Source of the DNA: a virus
Direction: 5' to 3' (one strand)
Length of the DNA stretch: 64,000 bases
Virus record (IMG/VR): IMGVR_UViG_3300027747_004779
Location: 62,001 to 126,000 of that record
The notes beneath the pieces were generated by a model that was not told the DNA's origin, did no database searches, and saw only the letters and a list, made by a program, of their open reading frames with translations. The position numbers and the translations under genes are program-made. Within the stretch, counting starts at the first letter, position 1. Every line of letters starts with the position of its first letter. Positions 8,267-63,191 of this stretch are shown here, piece by piece.

Positions 8267-9163
8267 ATGAACCAGACTAGAACGCTAGTAGAAATGGGTG
8301 ACTTCTATGAAAAGAGTGTCATCGAAGAAAAGAAATCAGTATTCCCCCCTAAGGGTACTTTTAAGAAGGCTGAAGATAAAAAGCCTGTTGAAGCTACTGC
8401 TGATAAAAAAGCGTTCGTCCAAAAAGATTCTGGCCCGGAAAACGCTGACGGCTTTAAGAAAGATCTTATTGATCCTAAGACAGAGAAAAAAGAAAATTTC
8501 TTTGAACCTAAGAAATTCTCACAAAACTATGAAAAAACAGAAGTACAAACAATAAATAATTGTATGAGCAAATCTATTTTTGACAAATTGTATGAGGATG
8601 TAATGTCCGATCAAGCCGTTGACACCGACACCACAGATGCCGCTGCCCTCGGTTTGCCTTCAGTTGACGCTGGAGAAGGTGAAACAAAGGAAGAAGTAAC
8701 ATTAACTCTTCCGCATGATTTAGCTGTTAAGCTTCATGAACTTCTCGCCACTGTAATCGGTGGTGAAGAAACATCCGGAGAAGAAACGGGTGAAGAAGCC
8801 GGTGCTGAAGATAGCGAAATGGCCGCTGCTGAAGGTGCTGATGAAGATAACGAAGAAAAAGAAGAGGATAAGGAAGAAGAAGAAGTAGCAAAAGAAGCTA
8901 CTGAACTTAAGGAAGTTCCTGCCTCAGCCGGTCAAGGCCTTCAGAAGAAGGATAATAAGGTCGGTGATGTAACAAAGAGTTTAGTATCACACGGTGCTGG
9001 TGATGGTAAAGTCACTGACAAATGTGGTAATGATGGTGAAAAAGGCCATGCTCTAGTAGGAAGCGGTGTAAAGGGTGGTGCCTCAACATCGCCTAAGGGC
9101 AAAGCTAACGTAGTTAGCAGCAAGACATCGAAGGTTGGTTCGTATCTCGCTGGTTTAAAATAA
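8267..9163 (+). CDS. Acidic low-complexity virion or scaffold-like protein with possible capsid-targeting tag
   Basis: 298 aa. The N-terminus MNQTRTLVE ends in L-V-E, a fit to the T4 gp21 cleavage rule (L/I)-x-E. Then comes a Lys-rich segment, a short folded part (SKSIFDKLYEDVM ... LPHDLAVKLHELL), a very acidic Glu/Ala run, and a Gly/Lys/Ser-rich tail. This composition resembles prohead core or internal head proteins. It follows a late element and ends before a strong terminator. No definite family. Confidence 0.6.
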   Translation: MNQTRTLVEMGDFYEKSVIEEKKSVFPPKGTFKKAEDKKPVEATADKKAFVQKDSGPENADGFKKDLIDPKTEKKENFFEPKKFSQNYEKTEVQTINNCMSKSIFDKLYEDVMSDQAVDTDTTDAAALGLPSVDAGEGETKEEVTLTLPHDLAVKLHELLATVIGGEETSGEETGEEAGAEDSEMAAAEGADEDNEEKEEDKEEEEVAKEATELKEVPASAGQGLQKKDNKVGDVTKSLVSHGAGDGKVTDKCGNDGEKGHALVGSGVKGGASTSPKGKANVVSSKTSKVGSYLAGLK

Positions 9164-11675: not shown

Positions 11676-11703
11676 ATTATAATGACTTCTTATTTTTTTG
11701 CAA
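11676..11703 (-). promoter_or_regulatory. Sigma70-like promoter TTGCAA-16-TATAAT
   Basis: -10 box ends 6 nt before ATG 11669, so transcription should begin at the start codon. Confidence 0.65.
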
Positions 11704-12067
11704 CCGGTTTCTCAGTAGCGTAAAATATTTTTTTTAACTCAACAATAATATTGGAAAGCTTTTCAATGACAGACATGACTTGCTCTTTTGCCGCATCATT
11801 TTCCTGGACAACAGGATTATTAAGTGACGCTTTGAAAAGCATGCGTGCGTTGCAGGCATTAATATATAGATCACCAAGCTGGCCGATAACGTTAGGCAAT
11901 GGATAAGGTAGGGGCTTATCTGCTTTAGCACTATTGGGATCTTGATCTACCGACTTATCAAATAAATCTTTTAAAGTAACTCTTTGAGTTGCAAGCTCTC
12001 TTGAAGCAATACCTGAAGTCCATTTATTGTAGTTTAAAACCTCTTCAAATAAAAGCTTTCGTTTCAC
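11690..12067 (-). CDS. Unknown late protein with L-F-E tag
   Basis: 125 aa, GTG start set by a late element 5 nt upstream. The N-terminus MKRKLLFEEVL contains L-F-E, a possible gp21-type cleavage site. The remainder is mainly helical and ends in a basic PVAKK. It is divergent from another late, similarly tagged gene at 12101. Function unknown. Confidence 0.6.
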   Translation of the reverse strand: MKRKLLFEEVLNYNKWTSGIASRELATQRVTLKDLFDKSVDQDPNSAKADKPLPYPLPNVIGQLGDLYINACNARMLFKASLNNPVVQENDAAKEQVMSVIEKLSNIIVELKKIFYATEKPVAKK

Positions 12068-12100: not shown

Positions 12101-12514
12101 ATGAGTCTATTCGAACGTAAATTTGGCATAGTTTTAGAAGCTAATGATGATGTTGAACCGACGCCTGCTGCTTCTAATGCACCTCAAACTGATAAAGAAG
12201 CGATGGCACAGTCATTAAATACTGCAAAACCTGAAGATTTTGATGTTGAAGGAAAAAGACAAGAACTTGTAGATCATGTTAAAGGTGAACAGACAACAAA
12301 GCTTAAAGAATGGATTGGACAAATAGATCAATTTATTACATTTTTAAATGGTACTGATGCAAGTTCAATGCAAGTTCAATTACATGCTGCACCTTGTGAC
12401 TCTACGTTCGAGGATATTGCAAGAAGTGAAAAGAAAAAAATTGCACGTCTTGCTGCTGAATTAAGTTCGCTCAGCGAATCACTTAAAGGCTATTTAATTT
12501 CTGCTAACGAGTAA
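12101..12514 (+). CDS. Unknown late protein, possible internal head protein
   Basis: 137 aa. The N-terminus MSLFERKFGIVLEAND resembles the capsid-targeting tag seen on several late proteins here, with a weaker site (V-L-E). A Pro/Ala-rich linker and a helical body follow. Its end overlaps the primase gene on the other strand by 11 bp. Confidence 0.65.
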   Translation: MSLFERKFGIVLEANDDVEPTPAASNAPQTDKEAMAQSLNTAKPEDFDVEGKRQELVDHVKGEQTTKLKEWIGQIDQFITFLNGTDASSMQVQLHAAPCDSTFEDIARSEKKKIARLAAELSSLSESLKGYLISANE

Positions 12515-16583: not shown

Positions 16584-17011
16584 TCTATTTTTTCTACTAA
16601 AGGAGTTTTTTTTAAAATACTATTAAGTGTATCTAGCTTACGTTCTATTCTATCTAATTGCTCAAATATTTGCTTTGAATATGGTGAGCTATCAAAATCA
16701 AATTCTAATTGATTGGGATCACTCTTTACTGCTTCTATTGTTTGAACGTTAAGGTTATGCTGTGGTTGAATATTATTAATATGCGGTTGAGCAATATTAA
16801 TGCCTGCGTTTACCACATTTGCAACCGGGTTCTGTGAACCGGGTATAGTGTTAATAACCCGCAAAGGGTCGATAGTTAACCCTTGTAAGGATGTAGTTTT
16901 GTTAGTAATGTGCTGGTCTAATACTTTAAGATCACCAGTCAGGTGCTGACCCATAAACTGGATCGTAGCAAGCCTAATCTCTTCTGGTGTTAATTCCTTA
17001 AAACTATCCAT
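16580..17011 (-). CDS. Unknown protein between SSB and clamp, with clamp-peptide-like motif
   Basis: 143 aa. A helical N-terminus, an Asn/Gln-rich middle, the peptide NQLEFDFD at about residue 97, then a heptad-like C-terminal helix (IFEQLDRIERKLDTLNSILKK). QLEFDF resembles short clamp-binding peptides (QLxLF type), and the neighbour is the clamp gene; this is inference. ATG overlaps the gp32 stop (TAATG). Confidence 0.6.
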   Translation of the reverse strand: MDSFKELTPEEIRLATIQFMGQHLTGDLKVLDQHITNKTTSLQGLTIDPLRVINTIPGSQNPVANVVNAGINIAQPHINNIQPQHNLNVQTIEAVKSDPNQLEFDFDSSPYSKQIFEQLDRIERKLDTLNSILKKTPLVEKID

Positions 17012-17859
17012 TACAGGTCCTTGAGCAGTTCCTTAATCGAAGCATCTTCGTCTTCGGTTGGCTTTGCAGCCTTCTTAGCAACTACTTGAACCGATGGTGT
17101 TGGAGCTGACGTTTTCGGCGTTACAGCTTCTACAGCTTCTTCAACATCCTTAGTACCATGATAATGCTCATCCAGGATATTCTTAAGCTCATCATAACTC
17201 TTAACACTTACATAAGATTCAAGATCAAATGCACTATTATAGATCTTATTATAGCCATCTTCATCAAGACCTTCAATTTCTTTAGGGGTAGAGAACTTCG
17301 ATGAAACGTATGTTGGATAATCGCCCTGTTTTTCAACCTTAATACGAAGGTTACAGCCTTTGGGCGAAAGATCAAAGATACGGGCGCCTAGCTCTGCAGC
17401 TTCTTCACCTTCGATTGCGTCCATAATAATCTTATGAAGCTGGCGACCAAAACGTACAATTTTTACTTTACCGTTATTTTCAGAGTTAACAGGATCATTT
17501 ACAACATATACATTCACCAACCAATTTTCACGACGCTTAATAGCGAGAGCTTTTTCTTTTTCTTTTTCTGTACCATTGCGAAGAACTCTGTAGCGCTCCT
17601 CGGCAATAGGATCACGCTGATTCCAAGTTGTCGGGCTAACAGCGGTAACTAACTGACCGGTCGTAAGACTATTCCAGCCATAAGAATAATAATGAAAGAA
17701 TGTCTTTGCAGCATCCTTAACATTAGGTAAAAGTCTAACAGTATAAGTATTGCCTGCCTCTGTGCGCAAGTAATCCTTAATTTTAGAAGAAGTAGACTCG
17801 TTATTTTTTGTCAAAGCACCCTTAATGCTTTCAAACATCGATGTAGTAAATGTATTCAT
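17011..17859 (-). CDS. 32: Single-stranded DNA-binding protein gp32
   Basis: 282 aa from ATG 17859 (T4 gp32 is 301 aa); 12 earlier codons are ignored because a sigma70-like promoter overlaps them. It has a basic N-terminus, an OB-fold core (TYTVRLLPNVKD, FFHYYSYGWNS, NWLVNVYVVNDP, VKIVRFGRQLHKII) and an acidic tail (EDEDASIKELLKDL) for protein partners. Unlike T4 gp32 it has no Cys/His zinc cluster: the only Cys is in KGCNLRI. Confidence 0.9.
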   Translation of the reverse strand: MNTFTTSMFESIKGALTKNNESTSSKIKDYLRTEAGNTYTVRLLPNVKDAAKTFFHYYSYGWNSLTTGQLVTAVSPTTWNQRDPIAEERYRVLRNGTEKEKEKALAIKRRENWLVNVYVVNDPVNSENNGKVKIVRFGRQLHKIIMDAIEGEEAAELGARIFDLSPKGCNLRIKVEKQGDYPTYVSSKFSTPKEIEGLDEDGYNKIYNSAFDLESYVSVKSYDELKNILDEHYHGTKDVEEAVEAVTPKTSAPTPSVQVVAKKAAKPTEDEDASIKELLKDL

Positions 17860-17867
17860 ATTAAAGT

Positions 17868-17895
17868 ATGATATATTCAAATAAAAATAAATCAA
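17868..17895 (-). promoter_or_regulatory. Sigma70-like promoter TTGATT-16-TATCAT
   Basis: -10 box ends 8 nt before ATG 17859 of gp32; -35 overlaps the stop of the upstream gene. Confidence 0.6.
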
Positions 17896-21823: not shown

Positions 21824-22732
21824 ATGAATAAGGATAGTAAACTCATATTCGAGGCATATTTAACAAAGAAACCTGTATTAAGTGAAGCTCCAATATATGG
21901 GCCGGGAGATTTAGACTATACCGGCGATATTGAAAGCGCCCCGGGAGGTGGTTACGGTGTTGGAACAGCTGCGGCAAAAGAGGGTAAAACAAAGACTGAG
22001 ATTGCCAACCGTATTCTTAATGCTGTCAAAACAAAGCTTTTTAAACCTGCAGCACATACAATCGATGGCAAAGAATATCAACTTTATTATCCTGGTAGTA
22101 AAATGAAGTTTAGAACAGAACTAGAAAATTTAATTAAAAACGAACTTAAGATAGGTGGTACAGCAGCCAAGTATACGGCGCGAGTAATTGATAATTTACT
22201 TAACGTTTTACGTGTAGATGTTGAAGGTGGTGCAGCTGCGTCGCCCGTACAGGTTAAGAAAGCTATTGACACCGGTGTACAGGGTAAGCCGGTATCTGGT
22301 GAGGGATCAACACAACCTGCTGCTCCTCAAGCTGCAGCAAACGTTTTCGTAAAAAATCCTCTTGTTCGTTTTATTAAAGAGTTTATGCCGATTTTTGTTG
22401 AACTACCTGATGAAATTACAACTTCAGGTAAGAAAGACTTTTACGAGTCGGATGAACTTCAGAACGAAGTCAAAGAAGCTATTACAAGAGCTTACGACGA
22501 AGCAAAAGCTAAGGATAAAGAGCTTATAAATGATTTCATCGATTCACTCAAACACAAAAACAGTTATATGCCTCAAGCTGAGGCACAAGCTAAAGAAGGT
22601 GAAGGTACCGGTGAAACCCCAACGGTTGATGAATATCCGGAAGATGATGATGTTACCGGTACATTAAGAGATATTGGCGCGTTACCGGGTAAAGTCGGTC
22701 GTGACCCGGGTAGCTTTAGCTACGGCGATTAA
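21824..22732 (+). CDS. Late protein with double capsid-targeting-like tag
   Basis: 302 aa. The N-terminus has two (L/I)-x-E sites: KLIFE at about residue 10 and VLSE near residue 21. A Gly-rich linker follows, then helical segments separated by Ala/Pro linkers and an acidic C-terminus (EYPEDDDVTG). Composition fits an internal head protein. Its last 17 bp overlap the end of queC. Function unknown. Confidence 0.65.
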   Translation: MNKDSKLIFEAYLTKKPVLSEAPIYGPGDLDYTGDIESAPGGGYGVGTAAAKEGKTKTEIANRILNAVKTKLFKPAAHTIDGKEYQLYYPGSKMKFRTELENLIKNELKIGGTAAKYTARVIDNLLNVLRVDVEGGAAASPVQVKKAIDTGVQGKPVSGEGSTQPAAPQAAANVFVKNPLVRFIKEFMPIFVELPDEITTSGKKDFYESDELQNEVKEAITRAYDEAKAKDKELINDFIDSLKHKNSYMPQAEAQAKEGEGTGETPTVDEYPEDDDVTGTLRDIGALPGKVGRDPGSFSYGD

Positions 22733-34148: not shown

Positions 34149-34173
34149 ATAGTATACATCTATATGAAATCAA
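34146..34173 (-). promoter_or_regulatory. Sigma70-like promoter TTGATT-16-TATTAT for recombination operon
   Basis: -10 box ends 8 nt before ATG 34137; -35 lies inside the divergent gene at 34164. Confidence 0.6.
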
Positions 34174-34424
34174 TAGGTTTATTCGAATCAAAGTTTTGCA
34201 AACTTCTTGAAGAAGATAATGTTGCAGGTGGTACGGGCAGCGCTTTTGGTTCCGGTACTTTAGCTCCTATAGGTAATTTTGGAAATCAATTTCCATCACA
34301 AAATGATGATGCTTACGCGCCAAATGATGCTAGAGTACCAAAGATATTAGGCACTAAAAAGAAAAAAAAGAAAAAAGATAAATTCTTAGTTCAGCGCCGT
34401 CCGCTTCCTGGTCTTAGCCTTTAA
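34164..34424 (+). CDS. Small basic late protein with capsid-targeting-like tag
   Basis: 86 aa. Tag-like start MKSIGLFESKFCKLLEE with L-E-E, then a Gly/Ser/Phe-rich linker and a run of seven lysines (TKKKKKKKDK) before QRRPLPG. Small Lys-rich proteins with a cleavable N-terminus are typical T4 internal head proteins; the lysine run could touch packaged DNA. Function inferred only. Confidence 0.6.
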   Translation: MKSIGLFESKFCKLLEEDNVAGGTGSAFGSGTLAPIGNFGNQFPSQNDDAYAPNDARVPKILGTKKKKKKKDKFLVQRRPLPGLSL

Positions 34425-34434
34425 TAGGTAATTA

Positions 34435-34442
34435 GCTAAATA
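34435..34442 (+). promoter_or_regulatory. Late promoter (GCTAAATA)
   Basis: Late element 4 nt before ATG 34447. Confidence 0.65.
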
Positions 34443-34446
34443 TAGT

Positions 34447-34860
34447 ATGGATCTTGGACATTGGTTACTTTCAGAAGGTATTTTTCTAAATGAAGATACA
34501 TTCGGCTTCATTTATGAAATAACAAATACAGTTACAAGTAAGAAGTATATTGGTAAAAAGCAGTGTAAATCAAAATTAAAAAGAAAACCATTGAAAGGTA
34601 AGAAAAACAAACGTATAGAAATAAAAGAGTCGGATTGGAAAGAATATACTAGCTCATCTAATGAATTAAATGAAGATATAAAGAAATACGGTAAAGATAG
34701 ATTTATATTTAAAATCTTGCGTGCATGCGGATCAAAATGGGAATTGGCATATTTTGAAATAAAAGAACAATTAGAAAAAAACGTTCTCTTAAGAGATGAC
34801 TATTATAATGGTATTATTAATGTTCGTATTGGCCGTCCTCCAAAAAGTTTTCTTGATTAG
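34447..34860 (+). CDS. GIY-YIG endonuclease with N-terminal capsid-targeting-like tag
   Basis: 137 aa. Residues 1-17 (MDLGHWLLSEGIFLNE) carry L-S-E and L-N-E sites. The nuclease then starts: GFIYEITN ... KKYIGKKQ is the GIY-YIG core, with the catalytic Arg/Lys-rich helix and a Glu (YFEIKEQLE) after it. It is late-expressed and not inside another gene, unlike homing enzymes. It may be packaged and delivered with the DNA. Confidence 0.8.
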   Translation: MDLGHWLLSEGIFLNEDTFGFIYEITNTVTSKKYIGKKQCKSKLKRKPLKGKKNKRIEIKESDWKEYTSSSNELNEDIKKYGKDRFIFKILRACGSKWELAYFEIKEQLEKNVLLRDDYYNGIINVRIGRPPKSFLD

Positions 34861-34881
34861 TTTGTATGTTTCATACATAAT
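34853..34881 (+). promoter_or_regulatory. Sigma70-like promoter TTGATT-17-CATAAT
   Basis: -10 box ends 5 nt before ATG 34887; -35 overlaps the end of the nuclease gene. Confidence 0.5.
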
Positions 34882-34886
34882 GTAGC

Positions 34887-35450
34887 ATGCTCAAAAAACT
34901 TGAGTTTAAGCAATATAACTTTCGTATAGTCGACTTTAATTCTATTTTTATTAAAAAAATTGAAGTTGATCTGATCAACGATCTGCATCGGTTTGAGCTA
35001 TTTAAAAATAGAATAACATCGCATACAAAAAAGTTTTTTTATCACCATATAATTTTCGGTTTATGTGAGTTCTTATTACATGAAAAAGCTAAAGAAAAAA
35101 CAATTATATATTTTAATAATACACAAATGTCTGATTTAGAGCTTTTTAAGTATTTTAAAGAGGATGAAGTGCGAGATGTAGTAGAACAAATAGTAAGAAG
35201 AATAAAGATACTACTACCCATTAGAGTCTTTATTACAAATATTTCTTATGATTTCCTTCAGCATCTTATAGACAGAAAAGATGGTAGAGGCGTGGAAGCT
35301 ATAAACAGTCTTAGAACATATATCGATAGTGTTAATTATGAAAAATATACATTTAGTAGGGTTTTAACATTTACAAAGCGCAATGATCTTATTTTTTTAA
35401 GTAAAGAATATTTTGATAAGCTTAAAGCAAAGCAACTTATAATAGTTTAA
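34887..35450 (+). CDS. Unknown early protein
   Basis: 187 aa, helical, rich in Phe, Ile and Lys, with no tag. It is the only gene in the 34-38 kb plus-strand block with a sigma70-like rather than late promoter. Segments TIIYFNNTQMSDLELFKYF and YTFSRVLTFTKRNDLIFLS suggest an alpha/beta fold with P-loop-like spacing, but no motif is intact. Function unknown. Confidence 0.65.
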   Translation: MLKKLEFKQYNFRIVDFNSIFIKKIEVDLINDLHRFELFKNRITSHTKKFFYHHIIFGLCEFLLHEKAKEKTIIYFNNTQMSDLELFKYFKEDEVRDVVEQIVRRIKILLPIRVFITNISYDFLQHLIDRKDGRGVEAINSLRTYIDSVNYEKYTFSRVLTFTKRNDLIFLSKEYFDKLKAKQLIIV

Positions 35451-35453
35451 AAC

Positions 35454-35461
35454 AATAAATA
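35454..35461 (+). promoter_or_regulatory. Late promoter (AATAAATA)
   Basis: Late element 5 nt before ATG 35467; likely drives the operon 35467-38885. Confidence 0.75.
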
Positions 35462-35466
35462 ATATT

Positions 35467-35907
35467 ATGACCTTTAATGAACGTATGGCAAAATACAAAT
35501 CTCTTCTAAATGAACAAGAGCCAGTTCCGCAAGATGCAGCTGCCCCTGCACCGCAAGCAGAGCAACCTTCAGCACTACCTGCAAAAGCTGCACCAATGGC
35601 TGTTCCACCCGAGGGATATGTAGATATGGTGAGATTACTTGCTAAGGCTTTAGTGATGAATGTACCTGCAGGGTCGGTTGATACATTGTTTACAAAGCCT
35701 ATAACAAAAGAGAACGCAATAGAAATGAGAGAGCAAATTGAAAATGCTATTTCAACAAGCGAGAGTGTAGGTGATAATGAAATGCGAATAACAAATCCTA
35801 ACGTTGAGAAATTTGTTAATTCAATTAATGAAAATAATTTTATGGCGAAATATAAGCAAATTCTTGCTATGATGAGAAATTATAGTAACGACCCGAAGTT
35901 AAAATGA
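35467..35907 (+). CDS. Late protein with capsid-targeting-like tag
   Basis: 146 aa. Tag MTFNERMAKYKSLLNE with L-N-E, followed by a Pro/Ala/Gln linker and a helical C-terminal domain. The tag-like helix pattern recurs near the end (NNFMAKYKQILAMMRN). First gene of a four-gene late operon with nuclease-, ligase- and NMNAT-like products. Function unknown. Confidence 0.65.
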   Translation: MTFNERMAKYKSLLNEQEPVPQDAAAPAPQAEQPSALPAKAAPMAVPPEGYVDMVRLLAKALVMNVPAGSVDTLFTKPITKENAIEMREQIENAISTSESVGDNEMRITNPNVEKFVNSINENNFMAKYKQILAMMRNYSNDPKLK

Positions 35908-35908
35908 T

Positions 35909-37015
35909 ATGGAAAAATATCGAAGCTTACAGGATATTTATTTAAAAGAAAGCTTTGCAAAGTCACTACCCCCTTTGCCTAGACAGACAATTAATTGGTT
36001 AATGGAAGCTATAGCTGATGCCCCGCCTCCTGCTCCCAATTCAGCTTATGTACAGCTTTACGTAAAAGATCCTTCAAAAAATGAACAACAATTTGTAGGT
36101 AATATCGATATAGATTATTTTAATAAAGTTGTTAAGCCTGTTTTAAATAGAGGATCAGAGGGTGCAATTAATGTTAATAAGTTAATAGAAAAAAGACTTA
36201 AAGATGCAAATATAACAACTGAGAATTTAAATATAATTTTTGATTATATACAGAACACAGGAATAAAAATTTCTTCTGAAAATTTTGCTAAATGTCAGAG
36301 TATACTTAAAACTGCGATTGCTTCAGAAACACCTTTTAACATAACTACTGTTTTATCAGAGAGTTTTGATACACCTGTAGAGAGCATTTCAAATAAATCA
36401 AATGAGCTTCTAGGCCTTATGCGCTTAAAAGCACAAAGTGGTTCTGCAACATTTGAAGATCGTAGTCAGGTTGCGGGTCCTGGTGAAGTTGTTTTGAGCT
36501 TCTTTGGTAACGGTAGAAAGCTTATAACATCGAAAAAGAAAACAGAAGCCGCTACAGCAGAAAAAGGAGATATATCTTTAGGTGAATTGAGAATAGAGCT
36601 TAAAGGAACGCAGGGAAGAATATACCCAGCAACAAAAATTACTTATAGTCAGCACGGTACTCCGGGTGATTTTGCAAAGAAAAACTTACAGAATAATCCA
36701 TTAGATGTAGTAAAGTATTATACGTTCGGTGAAGAGGGGCTATCAATTGATAGATTCGATAATGAAATTAATGCTGGCCTGAAGCAAAATATAGATGTAA
36801 GACTTTTAGCAACAGGGCTAGCATTAAGAGAGTATCAAGTAAAAAGTGGATTTCATTATTATGGTTTTGTAGATTCAAAAACATTTAATTGTGTAGCTTT
36901 AACAAGCGCAGATAAAGATATTATCGCTATAGGTAAATTTTATACTTCTTATATTGGTAATTATTTAAGCTTTGATAGAGGCGGTCATAAATTACCGCCC
37001 GCTTTTAAAATATAA
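35909..37015 (+). CDS. Possible PD-(D/E)XK nuclease with capsid-targeting-like tag
   Basis: 368 aa. Tag MEKYRSLQDIYLKE (L-K-E). The C-terminal half holds GPGEVVLSFFGNG, then KGDISLGELRIELKGTQGRIY: Glu (GPGE), Asp (GD) and E-x-K (ELK) are spaced as in PD-(D/E)XK nucleases. A virion nuclease is a reasonable reading, but the active site is inferred. Overlaps the next gene by 1 nt (TAATG). Confidence 0.6.
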   Translation: MEKYRSLQDIYLKESFAKSLPPLPRQTINWLMEAIADAPPPAPNSAYVQLYVKDPSKNEQQFVGNIDIDYFNKVVKPVLNRGSEGAINVNKLIEKRLKDANITTENLNIIFDYIQNTGIKISSENFAKCQSILKTAIASETPFNITTVLSESFDTPVESISNKSNELLGLMRLKAQSGSATFEDRSQVAGPGEVVLSFFGNGRKLITSKKKTEAATAEKGDISLGELRIELKGTQGRIYPATKITYSQHGTPGDFAKKNLQNNPLDVVKYYTFGEEGLSIDRFDNEINAGLKQNIDVRLLATGLALREYQVKSGFHYYGFVDSKTFNCVALTSADKDIIAIGKFYTSYIGNYLSFDRGGHKLPPAFKI

Positions 37016-38235
37016 TGATGACGTTTAAACAGTTTCTGCTTGAAGGCGGAGTTGCTGGTCATATGGCACATCCTTACGATCTGCCTAATGTTAATACAGG
37101 AAGAGATCTTATTAACGTCTTTAATAAAATAGCTACTAGCTTAGTTAAAAAGCCTTCTGTAGTAAAAATAGATGGTGTTAATGCCTCTATTAAGCTTATT
37201 ACAAATAAAGAGGGTAATAAAGAGTTTGCTATGGATAGAGGCTCAAATAAGCCAGAAGATGTAGAGGGTGTTACTATCGATAAGCTCAGCTCACGCTTTC
37301 CAGAGGGTCATGGTATGAGAGAAACGGGTAAAGTTGTATTAGAAATTTTTAATCAAGCTTTACCTTCAATAGAAAAGGAGCTCAAACAATTAAAGATGTG
37401 GGATAATAATCGCATTCTCTTTAATATGGAATTTGTTAAAGGTGCGACAAACGTAATTGGATATGCAAATAACTTTCTTGCTATTCACGGGTTAAATGAA
37501 ATAGTTGAGGTTAAAAGCCCTGTTCGAGGAAGTGTAAGTCGTGCATCGCGTGAAATACCTTATGATAAAAAAGCTTTACAATCGCTAATAGAAAAAGTCA
37601 AACCAATTGCTGAAAAATATAATTTTGACGTGGTAAATGAGTTTGTTGTTACACTAGCGAATAGGATTGATTTTAATCCAGAATTAAATTCAAAATTTTC
37701 TGTTAGTTATGATTCACGTAACATTCAAACAAAACCTTTAAAAGATTGGCTTAGTGAGGCAAAAAATCCTCGTGCTGATAAGATTAAGCTTGCATCAGGT
37801 AAATCTATTAGTGCGGTGAGTTTAGAAAATTATAAGAACATGTCTGCAGGGGTGCCTTTAGATCATTATCTTGGTAAGAATACAAAGGATTATCAAAAAG
37901 CAATTGATGGTGCGGTATTAATACACGCAACAATTTTAATGGGTCAAAAGATAAAAGATACTGCAACTTCAGAATTAGGTAATGTAGGTACACAAGAGGG
38001 TATTGTTATAAGAGATTCAAGTATATCTGTTAATCCGTTAAAAATAACAGGTAATTTTTTTACCGGCAAGGAAACAGGTCGTATTAAGCAGCTTAAAACA
38101 CAAGAGGAAGAAGAGGGTATTAAGGGTCAGCTCTCAAATACTAATAAAGTATTAAATTATAAAAACTATCAAACTAACCCCCCTTACGGAAAAGAAGGTG
38201 CGCGGTTAACATTAACACCAGGAATGAGTCTATGA
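37015..38235 (+). CDS. KxDG nucleotidyltransferase (DNA/RNA ligase-like) with capsid-targeting-like tag
   Basis: 406 aa. Tag MMTFKQFLLE (L-L-E). Ligase motif I is VVKIDGVNASIKL (K-x-D-G, the Lys that takes AMP); FNMEFVKG resembles motif III; QEGIVIRD is motif IV; NPLKITGNFF resembles motif V. These motifs fit a DNA or RNA ligase or related adenylating enzyme. Overlaps by 4 nt with the NMNAT-like gene. The true substrate is unknown. Confidence 0.7.
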   Translation: MMTFKQFLLEGGVAGHMAHPYDLPNVNTGRDLINVFNKIATSLVKKPSVVKIDGVNASIKLITNKEGNKEFAMDRGSNKPEDVEGVTIDKLSSRFPEGHGMRETGKVVLEIFNQALPSIEKELKQLKMWDNNRILFNMEFVKGATNVIGYANNFLAIHGLNEIVEVKSPVRGSVSRASREIPYDKKALQSLIEKVKPIAEKYNFDVVNEFVVTLANRIDFNPELNSKFSVSYDSRNIQTKPLKDWLSEAKNPRADKIKLASGKSISAVSLENYKNMSAGVPLDHYLGKNTKDYQKAIDGAVLIHATILMGQKIKDTATSELGNVGTQEGIVIRDSSISVNPLKITGNFFTGKETGRIKQLKTQEEEEGIKGQLSNTNKVLNYKNYQTNPPYGKEGARLTLTPGMSL

Positions 38236-38885
38236 AGTTTGATACATTAGTAGAGCAGATATTACAGCCACAGAAAAATAATCTTATTGTTATTTTTCCC
38301 GGGCGGTTTCAACCTTTTCATGTTGGTCATAAAAAGCTTTATGATGCTGCAAAACAGAAATTTCCTGGTGCCGATTTTTATATAGCCACAGCAGATACAA
38401 CAGAAAATAGCGCTAAAGAGCCTGATCGTTATCCTTTTAATTTTGCAGAAAAAAAAGAAATTATTAAAGCGACGGGTATACCGGAAAAAGAAATTGTACT
38501 TACAAAACAACCTTACAAGCCTATTGAAATTTTAAAAAACTATGATCAAAATGTTGCAAAAGTAATTTATATTGTAGGTGAAAAGGATATGAGAGAGGAT
38601 CCGCGATTTTCCTTTAAGCCTAAAAAAGATGGCTCTGCTCCTTACTTTCAGCCATTCAAGAGCTTAAATGAGCTCGAACCGTTTAAAGAACAAGGTGGTC
38701 ATGGCTACATCTATGCACCGGGTACAATACAGTTTAATCTCGGTGGTAAAAATATTACTAGTGCAACAGAGCTGAGAAATATGTATAAAGCAGCTGACGA
38801 GGCTACAAAAAAGCAGTATATAAAAGACGTTTTAGGTAAATTTGATCCAAAAGTCTATAATCTGTTTAACACAAAATTGCGTTAA
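38232..38885 (+). CDS. NMNAT-like nucleotidyltransferase with capsid-targeting-like tag
   Basis: 217 aa. Residues 1-9 MKFDTLVEQ hold L-V-E. The enzyme begins right after it: IVIFPGRFQPFHVGHKKLY has the HxGH motif of nicotinamide/FMN/CTP nucleotidyltransferases, and TSATELRNMY resembles the second (ISSTxxR) motif. NMNAT joins NMN and ATP to form NAD. The last gene of the tagged operon. The neighbouring ligase-like enzyme also uses nucleotidyl transfer. Confidence 0.78.
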   Translation: MKFDTLVEQILQPQKNNLIVIFPGRFQPFHVGHKKLYDAAKQKFPGADFYIATADTTENSAKEPDRYPFNFAEKKEIIKATGIPEKEIVLTKQPYKPIEILKNYDQNVAKVIYIVGEKDMREDPRFSFKPKKDGSAPYFQPFKSLNELEPFKEQGGHGYIYAPGTIQFNLGGKNITSATELRNMYKAADEATKKQYIKDVLGKFDPKVYNLFNTKLR

Positions 38886-39535
38886 TTTTTATTTTCAAGT
38901 AAAACAATGGTTTCTAGTAATACCTTTTCGAGTGTTTCTCTCGATTCTTTTCTCAATACCGTCCTAAGCTGGCTTACTAAAGAATCACCGCCATTTGCAA
39001 TTGCTTTATAAAGATCTTCTTCGTTATTTTCTTCAACGCCCATCATCTCCATCTGACTACGAGCGGCTTCGTAATCCTTATAATCAAATACGGATTCAAG
39101 GTCATCATGAGCATTAGTAAGCTTGCTTAATACCCATGCTTCAACATTACCGCCCTTGCGTATAATATCGTGAAGCATTGCTGAAAGTTTAAAAATTCTA
39201 AATAATAACTGTTTGGACATGTATTCATTCTTTTCAGTTTCCTCAAGACCGTCTTGAAGGTTCATTCCGCCGTCACATCCCTCGCATTCTTCATTTTTTT
39301 GATTTGCTTGACATTCCTCACATTCACTACAATCACATCCTTTAGCAGCATAAGGACAATGAGCGTCTTCTTCGTTTTCGCAGCCGCATTCTTTTTCTGG
39401 AACCTTAAAGCTCTGTATCTTCGAAGGTGTAGGTGTTACACTCTGATTATCAGCTTCTGGTCCAAGACCGAGATTCTCCTTAACGATCTTTTGATTATAG
39501 ATCTCATTTAAGAGGTGAAAGTCCTTATGGAACAT
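38882..39535 (-). CDS. Cysteine-rich late protein with capsid-targeting-like tag
   Basis: 217 aa. Tag MFHKDFHLLNE (L-N-E). Residues ~50-95 contain 13 Cys among many acidic residues (CGCENE, CPYAAKGCDCSECEEC, ECEGCDGG), enough for several metal ions. The C-terminal half is helical. Late element 5 nt before the ATG. A metal-loaded internal protein is one reading; function unknown. Confidence 0.65.
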   Translation of the reverse strand: MFHKDFHLLNEIYNQKIVKENLGLGPEADNQSVTPTPSKIQSFKVPEKECGCENEEDAHCPYAAKGCDCSECEECQANQKNEECEGCDGGMNLQDGLEETEKNEYMSKQLLFRIFKLSAMLHDIIRKGGNVEAWVLSKLTNAHDDLESVFDYKDYEAARSQMEMMGVEENNEEDLYKAIANGGDSLVSQLRTVLRKESRETLEKVLLETIVLLENKN

Positions 39536-39540
39536 GTAAT

Positions 39541-39548
39541 TATTTATT
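39541..39548 (-). promoter_or_regulatory. Late promoter (AATAAATA)
   Basis: Late element 5 nt before ATG 39535. Confidence 0.75.
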
Positions 39549-39951
39549 CTAATTCGATAAAATTATTACTGTTAGTTGAGTAAAATATCTTCTTAAAGTT
39601 CAACTGTTTAACGAGGTTTAAACAGCTTTTGCAAGGTTTTGACAAGTCTAATTGATTATTTCTATTAATACGAGTGTTTACTAGTGTATATTTACTGCAA
39701 TCTTCTTCGCCTAATCTTAATATTGCTGACAACTCAGAATGAACTCCTACGGTATGTGATATGTCGTCACCAGTACGGCTAAAAAAACCTATTTCCAAAT
39801 TCTTTGGGTGTGTTTTAGTAGGGTTATTAATACCTATAGAAAGAAGTCTATTTTTATGAAATATAAAAGAGAAGTGTTTACATCTGTAGTTTCCATGCTT
39901 CTTTAATAAAGCATAAGATATTTCTGTTGTCTTTCTAAACAGGTTTTCCAT
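39544..39951 (-). CDS. Cytidine/dCMP deaminase-superfamily protein
   Basis: 135 aa. Zinc-site motifs VGVHSELSAIL (H-x-E) and KPCKSCLNLVKQL (P-C-x2-C) are intact, as in cytidine deaminases. The domain is short for a T4-type dCMP deaminase (193 aa). Sigma70-like promoter 5 nt from the ATG, so expressed early. It may serve pyrimidine nucleotide metabolism or base editing. Confidence 0.75.
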   Translation of the reverse strand: MENLFRKTTEISYALLKKHGNYRCKHFSFIFHKNRLLSIGINNPTKTHPKNLEIGFFSRTGDDISHTVGVHSELSAILRLGEEDCSKYTLVNTRINRNNQLDLSKPCKSCLNLVKQLNFKKIFYSTNSNNFIELE

Positions 39952-39956
39952 ACTTA

Positions 39957-39985
39957 ATGTTAAATGAAAAGTGTTTAAAAATCAA
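39957..39985 (-). promoter_or_regulatory. Sigma70-like promoter TTGATT-17-TAACAT
   Basis: -10 box ends 5 nt before ATG 39951; -35 overlaps the late element of the divergent gene by 2 bp. Confidence 0.55.
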
Positions 39986-39991
39986 TAAATA
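39984..39991 (+). promoter_or_regulatory. Late promoter (AATAAATA)
   Basis: Late element 5 nt before ATG 39997. Confidence 0.75.
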
Positions 39992-39996
39992 TTACT

Positions 39997-40398
39997 ATGG
40001 AAGCGTTTAAAGATTTTTACAATAAACCAGTACTAGGTGTTGATGAAGTTATTGACGTTGAGGGATTAGGTGAGGTAAAGGCAAAAGTCGATAGCGGTAA
40101 TGAGGCGTATAATGTTATTCACGGTATAGATATCTCGCAAGAAGGGGATAACATATCTTTTACAACAGTAGGTGGAAAAAGAATGACAGCACCAAGAGAT
40201 GGTGAAATAAAAATACATATAGGAAGTGGTGTTAAGGAAGATAGGCCTACGGTAAAGCTTAATATTAAAATCGGCGATAAAGCTTATAAGGGTGTAACGT
40301 TTAGTGTTGCAGATCGATCTGAGAATCAAGATCCTATCTTAATAGGTGAACCGTTTCTTAAGCAATTAAACGCTGTTATCGACGTAAATAAAAAATAA
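39997..40398 (+). CDS. Retropepsin-like / ATP-dependent zinc protease family protein
   Basis: 133 aa. KAKVDSGNEAYNVIHG aligns with the catalytic D-(S/T)-G loop of retropepsin-like proteins (RimB/PF05618 type) and DPILIGEPFLKQL with the 'IG.dFL' closing motif. Late-expressed. It may be a virion-maturation or internal protease, or a catalytically weak relative. N-terminus MEAFKDFY resembles the tag helix but lacks an early (L/I)-x-E. Confidence 0.65.
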   Translation: MEAFKDFYNKPVLGVDEVIDVEGLGEVKAKVDSGNEAYNVIHGIDISQEGDNISFTTVGGKRMTAPRDGEIKIHIGSGVKEDRPTVKLNIKIGDKAYKGVTFSVADRSENQDPILIGEPFLKQLNAVIDVNKK

Positions 40399-40400
40399 AA

Positions 40401-41042
40401 TTAATTCTGCGCAAACTCGACAAACTTGTAAAACTCAGCTCGTGAATTATCATTATTATCTAGAAACGCACCAGACATTCTGGCTGTACGCATCGTTGAA
40501 TCATGTCTAATACCACGATTAGAACAGCAGGTATGATTGGCTTCAATCATTACAGCTACCCCATTATTTTTTTCACATACTAGATCAATATGAGCATGAA
40601 TTTGCATGGTAAGGTTTTCCTGTACCTGCGGACGGCGGGCAAACCAATCAACAATACGATTGAGCTTGCTTAAACCAATAACCTTACCTTCCTTAGATGG
40701 TATATAAGCTACATGAGCTACACCAGTAAAAGGTGCATGATGATGTGAGCAAAGCGAAGTCAATTTAATATTATTTTGACAGACCATGCCATCATATTGA
40801 TCGATATTATCAAAGGCTGTAATTTTCGGTGGTTTACTATAACAGCCCCATGCAAAGTCTTCTACAAAGGCCTTAGCCACGCGATGTGGGGTATTATCGC
40901 TGTTAGGATCATTTCTCCAATCATAACCTAATGCATCCATGTATGCTTCATAAGCTTTAGATGCTCTTTCAATTATTTGTTCTCTTTCTTCTTGAGTATG
41001 AGGATGATTATGATTAGCGAAAGCGAGTTTTACTTTAGACAT
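40401..41042 (-). CDS. folE: GTP cyclohydrolase I FolE
   Basis: 213 aa. The core LTSLCSHHHAPFTGVAHVAYIP is the zinc and GTP site of type I GTP cyclohydrolases; QVQENLTMQI and HTCCSNRG also match. It makes dihydroneopterin triphosphate, the first step to preQ0. Its sigma70-like promoter has the -10 box 7 nt from the ATG. A late element for the divergent gene touches the -35 box. Confidence 0.95.
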   Translation of the reverse strand: MSKVKLAFANHNHPHTQEEREQIIERASKAYEAYMDALGYDWRNDPNSDNTPHRVAKAFVEDFAWGCYSKPPKITAFDNIDQYDGMVCQNNIKLTSLCSHHHAPFTGVAHVAYIPSKEGKVIGLSKLNRIVDWFARRPQVQENLTMQIHAHIDLVCEKNNGVAVMIEANHTCCSNRGIRHDSTMRTARMSGAFLDNNDNSRAEFYKFVEFAQN

Positions 41043-41049
41043 ATCTACG

Positions 41050-41077
41050 ATTATATGATAAGATGTAACGAGATCAA
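41050..41077 (-). promoter_or_regulatory. Sigma70-like promoter TTGATC-16-TATAAT
   Basis: -10 box ends 7 nt before the ATG of folE. Confidence 0.65.
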
Positions 41078-41085
41078 CATAAATA
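41078..41085 (+). promoter_or_regulatory. Late promoter (CATAAATA)
   Basis: Late element 5 nt before a GTG at 41091; adjoins the folE -35 box. Confidence 0.65.
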
Positions 41086-41090
41086 ATTAT

Positions 41091-41528
41091 GTGAAGTATA
41101 ATGACGTAATATTAGAAAGTCTAAAGAAAACAGCTTTAAAGCGTATTCGAATTAAAGTAGATCCTGCGCAAGTAAGTGCTGAAGCTGACTTTTCTAAAGT
41201 AGATGGTTATGAGGGATATGTATTAGAAGAAGGCAAAGGTCATTTAAAGATATTAGTTCTTTCACCAGAAATGTGTATACAAGATATACCGGAAGAGTTT
41301 ATTGAAGCGCTAGCAGCAGAAGCAGATTATGATTCATTTTGCTGTTTTAAAGAATATCTAATTAAGCATTTACTTAAGGATGGTAAAGTAATGAACGATC
41401 CGATAATCATACAAATAAATAATACAAGCTGCTTAAGTGATATTGAAGTTATTATTCGTCAATGTGGGTATACCGGAGATAAACTAGCAGACTTATATAG
41501 AGGATTTTTAACAGATGAAGAAGCTTGA
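41091..41528 (+). CDS. Late protein with capsid-targeting-like tag
   Basis: 145 aa from GTG 41091, fixed by the late element; earlier ATGs would read through both promoters. N-terminus MKYNDVILESLKK contains I-L-E. A compact domain follows (YEGYVLEEGKGHLKILVLSPEM) with Cys-rich FCCFKEYL. Overlaps the next tagged gene by 14 nt. Function unknown. Confidence 0.65.
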   Translation: MKYNDVILESLKKTALKRIRIKVDPAQVSAEADFSKVDGYEGYVLEEGKGHLKILVLSPEMCIQDIPEEFIEALAAEADYDSFCCFKEYLIKHLLKDGKVMNDPIIIQINNTSCLSDIEVIIRQCGYTGDKLADLYRGFLTDEEA

Positions 41529-42138
41529 ATTTAACGATCTTGTAAATGCTGTCCTTAATGAAGATAATTTTCTTCAAAAAATAGGTAAAGGTGCAGCAAA
41601 TTGGGCCTCAAAACCATCTAATTGGGTTGGAGCAGCTGCAGCAGCTGTAAATGCACCAAAAGCTATACACACTGCTGTAACGGGTAGAGGTCAAATAGGG
41701 AGAGGTTTGAACGCATTACAGGGTGCGTTGGCTAAAAGAGAGCAAAAAAAGGAAGAAGAGCGTAAAAAGCAAGAAAAAGATGCAAAGGGACAGAGGCCAA
41801 CGAGAACAGCAACTGATACAAAGATAGAAGATTTTGATAAAGATGTTATAAAGACACTTCTTGCAAAGTCAAAAACAGGAACGTCTGCAGCACAGCAAAC
41901 AACAACGGGTACTGTACAAGCACCCGGGCAAGTAGCAGGGGGCACTGCAACACCGACTTCTGCTAGCGGGACAAGTTCCGGAGCAGTATCGGCTCCGATA
42001 ACGCAATCACCTTCCGCGACTCAAAGAGATCCTAAAGAAGGCGATGTATTTGCTTTAGTTGGAAAATACGGTCGTGTAAAAAGATATCAGGTTAAAAAAA
42101 TAGATGGAAACATTGTAAGTGCAGCACCCATGATATAA
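41515..42138 (+). CDS. Late protein with capsid-targeting-like tag and low-complexity body
   Basis: 207 aa. Tag MKKLEFNDLVNAVLNE with L-N-E. Then an Ala/Gly-rich, membrane-active-looking stretch (WVGAAAAAVNAPKAI), a highly charged Lys/Glu helix, a Thr/Ser/Ala/Gly-rich linker and a small beta C-terminal domain (GDVFALVGKYGRVKRYQVKKI). An internal or injected protein is plausible. Confidence 0.65.
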   Translation: MKKLEFNDLVNAVLNEDNFLQKIGKGAANWASKPSNWVGAAAAAVNAPKAIHTAVTGRGQIGRGLNALQGALAKREQKKEEERKKQEKDAKGQRPTRTATDTKIEDFDKDVIKTLLAKSKTGTSAAQQTTTGTVQAPGQVAGGTATPTSASGTSSGAVSAPITQSPSATQRDPKEGDVFALVGKYGRVKRYQVKKIDGNIVSAAPMI

Positions 42139-42146: not shown

Positions 42147-42341
42147 ATGCCATCAAAATCTGAAAAACAAAGAAAATTCTTTGGTGCCGTAATGAGTGCT
42201 AAAAAAGGTGCTAAAGGTGTAACTGGCGCGGCAAAAAAAGCTGCTAAAGAAATGCCAGAAAAAAAAATTAAAAAATTCCTTAAAAAAGAATCATTTGACA
42301 GCACGGTTAATAATATATTAAAAGGTCTTTATAATGTCTGA
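42147..42341 (+). CDS. Small basic DUF3008-like protein
   Basis: 64 aa. MPSKSEKQRKFFGAVMSAKKG matches the DUF3008 start (MPxKSxxQqrfmg...KkG), then a Lys/Ala-rich, histone-like helix. Likely DNA- or RNA-binding late protein. Overlaps the next small gene by 8 nt. Confidence 0.7.
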   Translation: MPSKSEKQRKFFGAVMSAKKGAKGVTGAAKKAAKEMPEKKIKKFLKKESFDSTVNNILKGLYNV

Positions 42342-61385: not shown

Positions 61386-63191
61386 ATGGCAAACCAGGAT
61401 TCAAATAGAGAAAGTACATTCGGCAGAGACTTAATGAAGTTTGTTTCTTCGAAATTACCCTATCAGTCTCTTAATATTGAAGATAAGATTAACTCGCTTA
61501 ATCCAAAGTACGAGGAATTCTTTGATAAAGGTACAAAACGCGAAGAAGCATTGTCCAGACAATCGATTTCTTCATCGCTAGCTTTCACAGATGATTTATA
61601 TGCCAATGTAATTCAGAATAAAGATTATCATAACTACATGTATGCAAACTTGCAGCCTGATAAAGGTCGCAGGTTAATGGATTATAGAGTAATGGCGGCT
61701 TTCTCTGAAGTTGCAGATGCATTAGATGAAATATGCGATGAATTTATTAACAAGGATGATAACGGTGAAATTGTTAAACTAAGACTAAAAACAGATGCGC
61801 TTTCTGAAGAGCAGAAAGAAAAGCTTAAAAAAGAATTTCAAAAGTATATTAGTTACTTTGACCTTGAAAATAAAGGTTGGGAGTACTTGAGACAGCTCTT
61901 AGTTGATTCTGAGTTATACTTTGAACATATTGTTCATAAGAAATATCCTCAAGAAGGTATTCTTGGTGTTGTTGCTATTCCACCCGACCTTATTGACCCA
62001 ATCTTTGAAAATGTACAAAACCAGATTGTAAGAGGTTATTTGTTGCGTAAAAATATTTACGATGCTAAGAACCCTGGCAAAGTATCAAAAGTCGAGCTCG
62101 TACCGATGGATGTTAATCAAGTTACATACATTAATTCAGGCATATGGAATGAGTCAAAGACAGTTAGACTTCCGTTCATAGAAAATGCTAGAAGAGCTTA
62201 CAGACAGCTATCACTTATTGAAGATGCGATCGTAATTTATCGTTTAGTCCGTGCACCAGAGCGTTTGGTTTTTAACGTAGATGTAGGTAATATGCCCCCA
62301 CCTAAGGCAGAAGCATATCTACGCAAATTAATGACAAATTACTGGTCAAAAAGAACTTATGATGCTGATCAAGGTGCATCAGTACAGAAATTTAATCCAC
62401 AATCAATGCTCGATAGCTTTTGGTTTGCAAAACGCGCTGGTAGTGAGGGTACAACAGTTACCCAGTTGCCTGGCGGTGCTAATCTTGGTGAACTTACCGA
62501 TCTAATGTATTTTGTACAAAAGCTCTACAAGTCGCTTAAAGTACCAGTAACACGTCTCAATGTTGAGGATGTATTTAAAGATGGAACAGACATTCTTCGC
62601 GAAGAGCTAAAATTTGCACGATTTATTATTCGACAACAGCAGCGCTTTGCTTCCGGACTTAAGAACGGTTTTGTTACACATCTCAAGCTAAAAAAGTTTT
62701 GGGAAGAATATAAACTTAAAGAAGCAGAAATTGATATTACGCTTAATGTACCAACAAACTTTTATGAGCTTAGAGAAAATCAGAAGTTCCAGCTTAAAGC
62801 AGAAAACTTTAATTCTATTACACAAAGCGATCTTGTTTCTAAAACATATGCACAGAAAAAATATCTTGGCTGGACAGATACCGATCTTATGGCTAATAGA
62901 GAGTTTTTAAGAAAAGACAGAGAACTACTTTGGGAGTTAGATCAAATTACAAATGGTGGACCAAATTGGAGAGAGCAAGGCGCTGTAGCGCCTGGTCAAG
63001 GGCCTGAAGCAGGAGCCGGAGGAGCAGGAGGCGGTACAGCAGGTGGTGGAGGATCAAGATTACCACCAGAATTTGGCCCTGGGCCTGGTGGTGCTGGTGG
63101 AGAAGCAGGCGCAGCTACGCCAGCAGCTGGTGGAGGTACGACTTCTAATAGTGCAGCTGCGGGAGGCGAAACCGCTACTCCCGCGGCATAA
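61386..63191 (+). CDS. 20: Portal protein gp20
   Basis: 601 aa (T4 gp20 is 524 aa). Portal features: DYRVMAAFSEVADALDEICDE, VDSELYFEHIV, IVIYRLVRAPERLVFNVDVGNMP, LPGGANLGEL and VPVTRLNVEDVF. Twelve copies form the DNA entry ring. The last ~65 residues are an Ala/Gly/Pro-rich low-complexity tail that T4 gp20 lacks. Confidence 0.96.
   Translation: MANQDSNRESTFGRDLMKFVSSKLPYQSLNIEDKINSLNPKYEEFFDKGTKREEALSRQSISSSLAFTDDLYANVIQNKDYHNYMYANLQPDKGRRLMDYRVMAAFSEVADALDEICDEFINKDDNGEIVKLRLKTDALSEEQKEKLKKEFQKYISYFDLENKGWEYLRQLLVDSELYFEHIVHKKYPQEGILGVVAIPPDLIDPIFENVQNQIVRGYLLRKNIYDAKNPGKVSKVELVPMDVNQVTYINSGIWNESKTVRLPFIENARRAYRQLSLIEDAIVIYRLVRAPERLVFNVDVGNMPPPKAEAYLRKLMTNYWSKRTYDADQGASVQKFNPQSMLDSFWFAKRAGSEGTTVTQLPGGANLGELTDLMYFVQKLYKSLKVPVTRLNVEDVFKDGTDILREELKFARFIIRQQQRFASGLKNGFVTHLKLKKFWEEYKLKEAEIDITLNVPTNFYELRENQKFQLKAENFNSITQSDLVSKTYAQKKYLGWTDTDLMANREFLRKDRELLWELDQITNGGPNWREQGAVAPGQGPEAGAGGAGGGTAGGGGSRLPPEFGPGPGGAGGEAGAATPAAGGGTTSNSAAAGGETATPAA

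Follow-up and report, generated by a model that had tools for sequence, protein, structure and literature searches.

Candidate capsid-targeting tags on otherwise unrelated proteins of a T4-like virus, one of them preceding a copy of the phage's own gp23 arm

Tagged genes in the window

The window analysed here, 64,000 nucleotides of virus record IMGVR_UViG_3300027747_004779 (positions 62,001 to 126,000), belongs to the 158-kb genome of a T4-like virus encoding the prohead protease gp21 (profile match to Pfam Peptidase_S77, E 9e-34), the major capsid protein gp23 (Gp23 profile, E 5e-88) and a gp22-like core protein whose match to T4_CASP (gp22), at E 6e-6, lies just under the profile cut-off. 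The phage thus has both the gp21 protease and the gp22 core that a T4-type capsid-targeting sequence (CTS) requires. An earlier, sequence-only reading had assigned such a sequence to thirteen proteins of the window, and all 13 open reading frames are found where it placed them, each with a hydrophobic-x-E stretch within about 20 residues. Tagged and tag-like genes of the window are given below, with arrows at the putative cut.

8267..9163, + strand: acidic protein, start MNxxR..xE.GD(F/L)Y(x)E↓, conserved in 5 of 6 relatives
11690..12067, - strand: MKRKLLFE↓EVL, GTG start; LLFE, LVFE, ILFE or VINE in relatives
12101..12514, + strand: MSLFERKFGIVLE↓AND, found in 12 of 12 records searched
21824..22732, + strand: MNKDSKLIFE↓AYLTKKPVLSE↓AP, D..LIxEAY class; two sites, both conserved
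34164..34211, + strand: capsid-targeting-like tag MKSIGLFESKFCKLLE↓ of the 34164 protein; Glu16 aligns with the gp23 maturation Glu
34212..34355, + strand: duplicates the N-terminal arm (N-fist/N-arm region) of the phage's own mature gp23, from blastp and alignment
34356..34376, + strand: heptalysine tail, then DKFLVQRRPLPGLSL, from the sequence
34447..34860, + strand: SegE-type GIY-YIG endonuclease (PF19835, E 4e-31), tag doubtful
35467..35907, + strand: MTFNERMAKYKSLLNE↓QEP, Pro/Ala linker, no known family; tag kept in homologues
35909..37015, + strand: MEKYRSLQDIYLKE↓SFA; homologues found retain IYL(K/S)E↓(S/T)FA
37015..38235, + strand: MMTFKQFLLE↓GG; F4, F7 and E10 unchanged across 11 sequences
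38232..38885, + strand: cytidylyltransferase-like enzyme (PF01467, E 9e-8), MKFDTLVE↓Q
38882..39535, - strand: Cys-rich protein, MFHKDFHLLNEIYNQKIVKE↓NLG, D..LLxE.Y tag class; phi-x-E↓N site near residue 20 conserved
39997..40398, + strand: retropepsin/Zn_protease-like protein (PF05618, sub-threshold), tag-like start without the Glu (MEAFKDFYNKP)
41091..41528, + strand: MKYNDVILE↓SLKK, GTG start; phi-phi-x-E↓SLKK in homologues, P2 variable
41515..42138, + strand: MKKLEFNDLVNAVLNE↓DNF; homologues with FDNLVDLILNE↓ and FDNLANLALNE↓
42147..42341, + strand: small basic protein, C-terminal ESFNDTVNNILTE resembling an F(D/N)xxVNxIL(x)E tag, similar in relatives

Ten of the thirteen assignments are well supported. 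That of the 34447 protein is doubtful, since its start, DLGHW, is conserved in the SegE family and the Glu is lost in some relatives, and two proteins need a cut site other than the one first proposed: at 8267 conservation falls on (F/L)Y(x)E around residue 16 instead of TLVE, and at 38882, because the Glu of LLNE is Asp in several relatives, on IVKE, IITE or ILNE↓N at about residue 20. Most of the proteins belong to no recognisable family, as had been claimed, according to profile and family searches, and searches of named phages with the 34164, 37015 and 12101 proteins gave no match. The 35909 protein, without a family match in profile searches, is possibly a PD-(D/E)xK nuclease, as judged by eye only. 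A KIDG motif leads us to suspect that the 37015 protein is a ligase-type nucleotidyltransferase; its predicted fold (mean pLDDT 74) has no significant structural match, and the weak ones (E 0.1-0.8) repeatedly include RNA/tRNA ligases and capping enzymes.

Further tags are found outside the window at record positions 1815, 5406, 52581, 134462, 147572, 148286 (- strand) and 150332 (- strand). The statement that most tagged genes follow a late promoter proves broadly right: TAAATA begins 10-13 nt 5' of the start codon in 10 of 18 tag genes vs 40 of the 147 others (Fisher P 0.017), and 11 of the 18 are first in their run. The gene at 17011-17895 (record g070, an ssDNA-binding protein by its look) was considered as a tagged gene and dropped; its relatives start at MFESI or MFDSI.

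A tagged copy of the gp23 arm and its parallel in T4 gp61.1

The body of the 34164 protein matches the arm of the phage's own gp23 with 65% identity over 46 aa in a blastp search within the proteome (E 9e-16), with a local alignment score of 153 (z 21 against shuffles), and the end of its tag coincides exactly with the expected gp23 cut position. In the relative G004 an equal body carries MITFKQYFNE↓ in place of this tag, and the polybasic tail and (V/I)QRR end are preserved in relatives. A tblastn search with the whole protein found no match in any named phage. A protein of the same plan occurs in T4. The hypothetical protein gp61.1, of 54 aa, opens with MKTFKEF, as T4 IPI does, and reads MKTFKEFIKE↓DMVAGD..., followed by a copy of the T4 N-fist (gp23 66-91) and a polybasic tail; in both proteins the tag Glu stands at the gp23 cleavage position. 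The two are not a sequence family, as their alignment score of 23.5 is that of shuffled sequences; what the 34164 protein shares with gp61.1 is the architecture of tag, N-fist of its own lineage and polybasic tail. Between the 34164 and T4 lineages, the gp23 copy matches the arm of its own lineage and not that of the other, and inside one lineage it is generally no closer to the gp23 of its own phage than to that of a sister. Gene 61.1 adjoins the primase gene in T4, where no late promoter was found within 700 bp upstream; one is present upstream of 61.1 in 4 of 7 relatives checked. Two other candidates were examined: Melnitz 22654 scored 42 as a gp23-arm copy vs 39 for the next ORF, and no claim is made for it, and for the small polylysine protein at record position 147572 a search of its own phage's proteome found no protein that it might copy.

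The T4 N-fist, gp23 residues 66-91, touches four subunits and shifts outward on expansion (PMC7136217; PMC9958956), and lysines of T4 internal proteins contact DNA phosphates (PMC3012670). The processed product of the 34164 gene, and of T4 gene 61.1, would most likely be a free N-fist peptide that fills N-fist sites once the shell has expanded, for example beside vertex or portal subunits that supply no N-fist, its lysine tail lying on the packaged DNA, a final step that is evenly balanced between true and false. For these two proteins a gp23-like part acting as an assembly decoy or carrier, for instance by titrating a capsid chaperone or gp21, with no permanent shell peptide, would explain the tag and the likeness to the lineage's own gp23 N-terminus too. 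We nevertheless regard a decoy as somewhat doubtful, given that the segment copied (T4 gp23 66-91) is one that is ordered once cleavage and expansion have taken place, while the removed propeptide is not copied, and that a lysine tail would suit contact with packaged DNA. Chances are perhaps even that the heads of T4-like phages contain a free copy of the N-fist of their capsid protein, tracking the capsid protein of each lineage and reaching the DNA by its lysine tail. If so, T4 would harbour, under the label of a 54-residue 'hypothetical', a shell component built out of part of the shell protein itself, and gp61.1 would have a function open to test in the best-studied of phage heads.

Frequency, conservation and exchange of the tags

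Across the whole genome the loose pattern [LIVFMY][LIVFM]xE within residues 2-25 occurs in 34 of 165 genes, compared with 16.3 +/- 3.5 in interior windows (34 was reached in 0 of 2000 draws) and 18.1 +/- 3.7 in shuffled N-termini; N-terminal hydrophobic-x-Glu stretches are about twice as frequent as chance would give. The pattern is shared by 80% or more of the members in 12 of 78 homologous families, vs 4.6 +/- 1.9 expected; a strict column-by-column conservation test is weak (6 families vs 3.8). The excess recurs in several relatives and is absent in Melnitz and S-ShM2, both gp21-bearing phages, and in SPO1 and lambda, in which no gp21 was found. A position scoring matrix trained on hand-picked tags of this clade only failed to pick up the T4 internal proteins and was therefore left out as a cross-phage test.

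The strongest evidence that the observation is real is the sharing of one tag class, D-x-x-L-I-x-E-A-Y (D..LIxEAY), which opens 27 proteins in seven related viruses, drawn from 14 unrelated families. It matches 1 of 15,515 interior windows, an N-terminal enrichment of 332-fold, and was found in none of five control phages. Since this class stands beside an F..F type, giving at least two, not all tags look like those of T4. Tags and bodies have been swapped independently, one tag occurring on unrelated bodies: tag and linker run in parallel on a SleB hydrolase (PF07486, record 147753-148286) and, in the relative G004, on a phage lysozyme (PF00959). Conversely, the cytidylyltransferase-like enzyme family bears at least four different tags; the site reads LVEQ in the phage and LVNE in most relatives, and similar enzymes carry MTFRKFFLE↓, MKSFKQFILE↓ or MKTFQQFFIE↓. 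Homologues of the 35467 protein differ in the linker but retain the tag in forms such as LLTE↓A, LFNE↓Q and LYKE↓Q, and G011_084, a homologue of the 39997 protein, begins with a complete tag, MIKFKQYFQE↓.

Such motifs might be real and yet serve a role outside the head, such as binding a factor of the phage or host late in infection, with x-E forming part of a binding helix and no cleavage. The D..LIxEAY class, which keeps D and AY flanking the Glu and is not seen in T4, would suit this explanation, which we hold to be unlikely: the F..F tags equal those of T4 internal proteins letter for letter in places, phi-phi-x-E is retained though spacing varies from tag to tag, and in the 34164 protein and T4 gp61.1 the Glu falls on the gp23 maturation site, with the mature arm coming next. 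That these are ordinary proteins picked out by a selection effect is very improbable, for although 16 of 165 genes would show the loose pattern by chance and the 34447 protein looks like such a case, the enrichment of D..LIxEAY already disfavours it, as do the excess in the phage and several relatives and a P1 Glu kept across homologues where P2 and flanking residues vary.

Predicted fate of the tagged proteins and comparison with known systems

We consider it likely that these are T4-type capsid-targeting tags cut by gp21, on packaged cargo that includes a free N-fist peptide. Nearly all points of this interpretation that can be tested on sequence agree, the exceptions in the original proposal being the doubtful 34447 tag and the two misplaced sites. 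About nineteen to twenty otherwise unrelated proteins would bear at the N-terminus a short targeting peptide with affinity for a gp22-type scaffold core, through which they would be built into the prohead; gp21 would then cut after the tag Glu, leaving the cargo in the head with the DNA, either to be ejected at infection or to be retained in the shell. Core binding, cleavage, packaging and ejection are steps that we infer. The sequence by itself would then predict which of the nameless late gene products are carried in the head, and at which residue they are processed, in uncultured viruses in which most of these genes are without named relatives. With enzymes among the candidates (cytidylyltransferase-like, cell-wall hydrolase or lysozyme, perhaps a ligase), delivery would extend beyond inhibitors to enzymes.

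The N-terminus of DarB of phage P1, N-terminal like the tags described here, is sufficient to package a reporter in the head, and, unlike these tags, the Dar proteins have no shared consensus or gp21-type site described in the part of the P1 account drawn on here (PMC9024508). The closer parallel is the CTS of T4 IPI, IPII, IPIII and Alt (PMC9026906; PMC3012670), which is likewise N-terminal, of about 10-20 residues with hydrophobic or aromatic positions, ends in a gp21-type L/I-x-E and forms one conserved tag on diverse bodies. The residues corresponding to F4, F7 and E10 of the 37015 protein matter for targeting and processing of T4 IPIII (PMC9026906); compared at IPIII positions 4 and 7, the other tags differ in length and spacing. 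Unlike the T4 set, the candidates described here include enzymes, fall into several tag classes and are known from sequence alone, some having two sites and one a tag-like C-terminus.

The virus and its head genes

The window covers positions 62001-126000 of an IMG/VR virus record of 157,857 bases, over which 165 genes were called with a simple custom script; gene starts, including the GTG start codons of proteins 11690 and 41091 (named, as below, by window coordinate), rest on that caller. The prohead protease gp21 (Pfam Peptidase_S77), the major capsid protein gp23 (Pfam Gp23) and a gp22-like core protein were identified just downstream of the window. To judge from its sequence the virus is a deep T4-like lineage, gp23 and the DNA polymerase being ~30% identical to named-phage proteins, cyanophages foremost, and close relatives of the record are metagenomic contigs throughout. 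Over the whole record, 46 of the 165 genes have a TAAATA whose first base lies precisely 11 or 12 nt ahead of the start codon; the next most frequent distances have 3. Should this be a late promoter of the T4 type, late mRNAs would be leaderless, with their first base on the start codon or no more than one or two bases from it. Outside the window, record positions 150706-157072 hold at least eight similar genes starting MAD(V/I/Q)TI or alike, apparently repeated paralogues.

N-terminal tags and their exchange

The sequence-only reading had picked out thirteen window proteins, all present as ORFs, with (L/I)-x-E within about 20 residues of the start, as packaged, mostly late gene products with a tag like the one that gp21 cuts in T4. 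Comparison with interior stretches bears out an excess at N-termini: [LIVFMY][LIVFM]xE falls within residues 2-25 in 34 of the record's 165 genes, where interior windows lead one to expect 16.3 ± 3.5. Chance would thus account for about half of these loose matches, and pattern alone is no basis for judging the list; conservation in homologues was taken as the deciding criterion for individual tags. The pattern is kept in 12 of 78 families against 4.6 ± 1.9, while a stricter conservation test gave a weak result (6 families against 3.8). Tags are retained in homologues (↓, predicted gp21 cut; phi, hydrophobic) of 35467 (LLNE, LLTE, LFNE or LYKE, then Q or A, ahead of a hypervariable Pro/Ala linker), 37015 ((T/S)Fx(Q/E)F(L/V)xE↓GG), 41091 (phi-phi-x-E↓SLKK, x variable), 35909 (IYL(K/S)E↓(S/T)FA) and, with small variations in 6/6 relatives, 12101 (F...F..(V/L)LE↓A or ↓Q), while 21824 has two sites, both retained. 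In 38882 a conserved site exists but lies later than the one proposed, and the tag of 34447 is doubtful on homologue comparison. Melnitz and S-ShM2 possess gp21 yet show no pattern excess; not every T4-like phage, then, uses tags heavily.

At the sequence level, the tags behave as modules. Across seven genomes, 27 proteins start with the motif D..[LFI]x.E[AIL]Y; without the tag they form 14 sequence families. Among 15,515 interior windows the motif turns up a single time, and it is absent from T4, Melnitz, S-ShM2, SPO1 and lambda. The cytidylyltransferase-like 38232 carries MKFDxLVNE, MKFDFLFE, MTFRKFFLE, MKSFKQFILE or MKTFQQFFIE depending on the virus. Further proteins with tag-like features are:

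Record 147753-148286, minus strand, outside the window: start with a packaging-type tag, MRFKEIFEKLLE↓AAVDLPPQPPAIVQKAQ, then a SleB-type cell-wall hydrolase; in relative G004 a parallel tag and linker (MNFYRKLKEILE↓AISDVPPPPPAIIQKAE) precede a phage lysozyme.
39997-40398: retropepsin/Zn_protease-like; tag lacking Glu here, complete in relative G011 (MIKFKQYFQE↓).
42147-42341: small basic protein; its relatives carry a tag-like C-terminal sequence (ESFNDTVNNILTE), reminiscent of the processing of T4 Alt at its C-terminus.

Free copies of the capsid arm

Two proteins share one design:

34164: 86 residues; tag MKSIGLFESKFCKLLE, middle part EDNVAGG...FGNQFPSQNDDAYAPNDARVPKILGT, the lysine run KKKKKKK, and a brief C-terminal stretch.
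T4 AF158101 18966-19130, minus strand: gp61.1 (MKTFKEFIKE↓DMVAGDSGGNPENISIGTTSGAVVNKGPEQIPKKKKEESKEKEE), which copies the gp23 N-fist between a tag and a lysine tail.

The middle of 34164 is 65% identical to residues 63-108 of the same phage's gp23 (E 9e-16), which there reads WCFE↓ASNIAG..., so that the tag Glu aligns with the expected gp23 maturation cleavage position. A six-frame pattern scan of the T4 genome retrieved the internal proteins IPII and IPIII and one further protein, gp61.1, whose middle copies T4 gp23 from residue 66 (AEIGGDHGYNATNIAAGQTSGAVTQIGP); T4 gp23 loses a propeptide of 65 residues (PMC9958956) and its N-fist comprises residues 66-91 (PMC7136217). Scored against the gp23 arm, gp61.1 is the best other T4 ORF (82, next 42). 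It matches ~1,400 phage records; among the matches listed nearly all are named hypothetical and one is annotated 'Major capsid protein Gp23', and T4 gp23 as query independently matches the 61.1-like ORF in several of those records. Some T4 relatives have the arm copy downstream of a longer domain in a single fusion protein, and there too a Glu precedes the arm. In 4 of 7 relatives checked, the 61.1-type gene, although its neighbours are replication genes, is preceded at 21-39 nt by a late-promoter sequence; T4 gene 61.1 has none within 700 bp. A search of the literature turned up no virion data for gp61.1.

Across 21 phages, each copy aligns with its own lineage's capsid arm (z 7-21 against shuffles) and only near chance level with the other lineage's; the T4 and 34164 copies show no resemblance, and within a lineage a copy does not single out its own phage's gp23.

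Proposed route into the head

The cut product of 34164 and gp61.1 may act as a free N-fist. N-fists of gp23* shift outward on expansion, binding four subunits (PMC9958956), and the five facing the portal are disordered (PMC7136217). N-fist sites at the vertices may be left unfilled, since gp24 is described with N-arms but without N-fists (PMC9958956). In the best-supported chain, late expression would be followed by binding of the tag to the scaffold core and gp21 cleavage after Glu, the cargo staying in the head. In T4 IPIII, mutagenesis traced targeting mainly to positions 4 and 7, and processing to positions 8 and 10 (PMC9026906); in homologues of 37015 F4, F7 and E10 are invariant, corresponding to the two targeting positions and to processing position 10 of IPIII.
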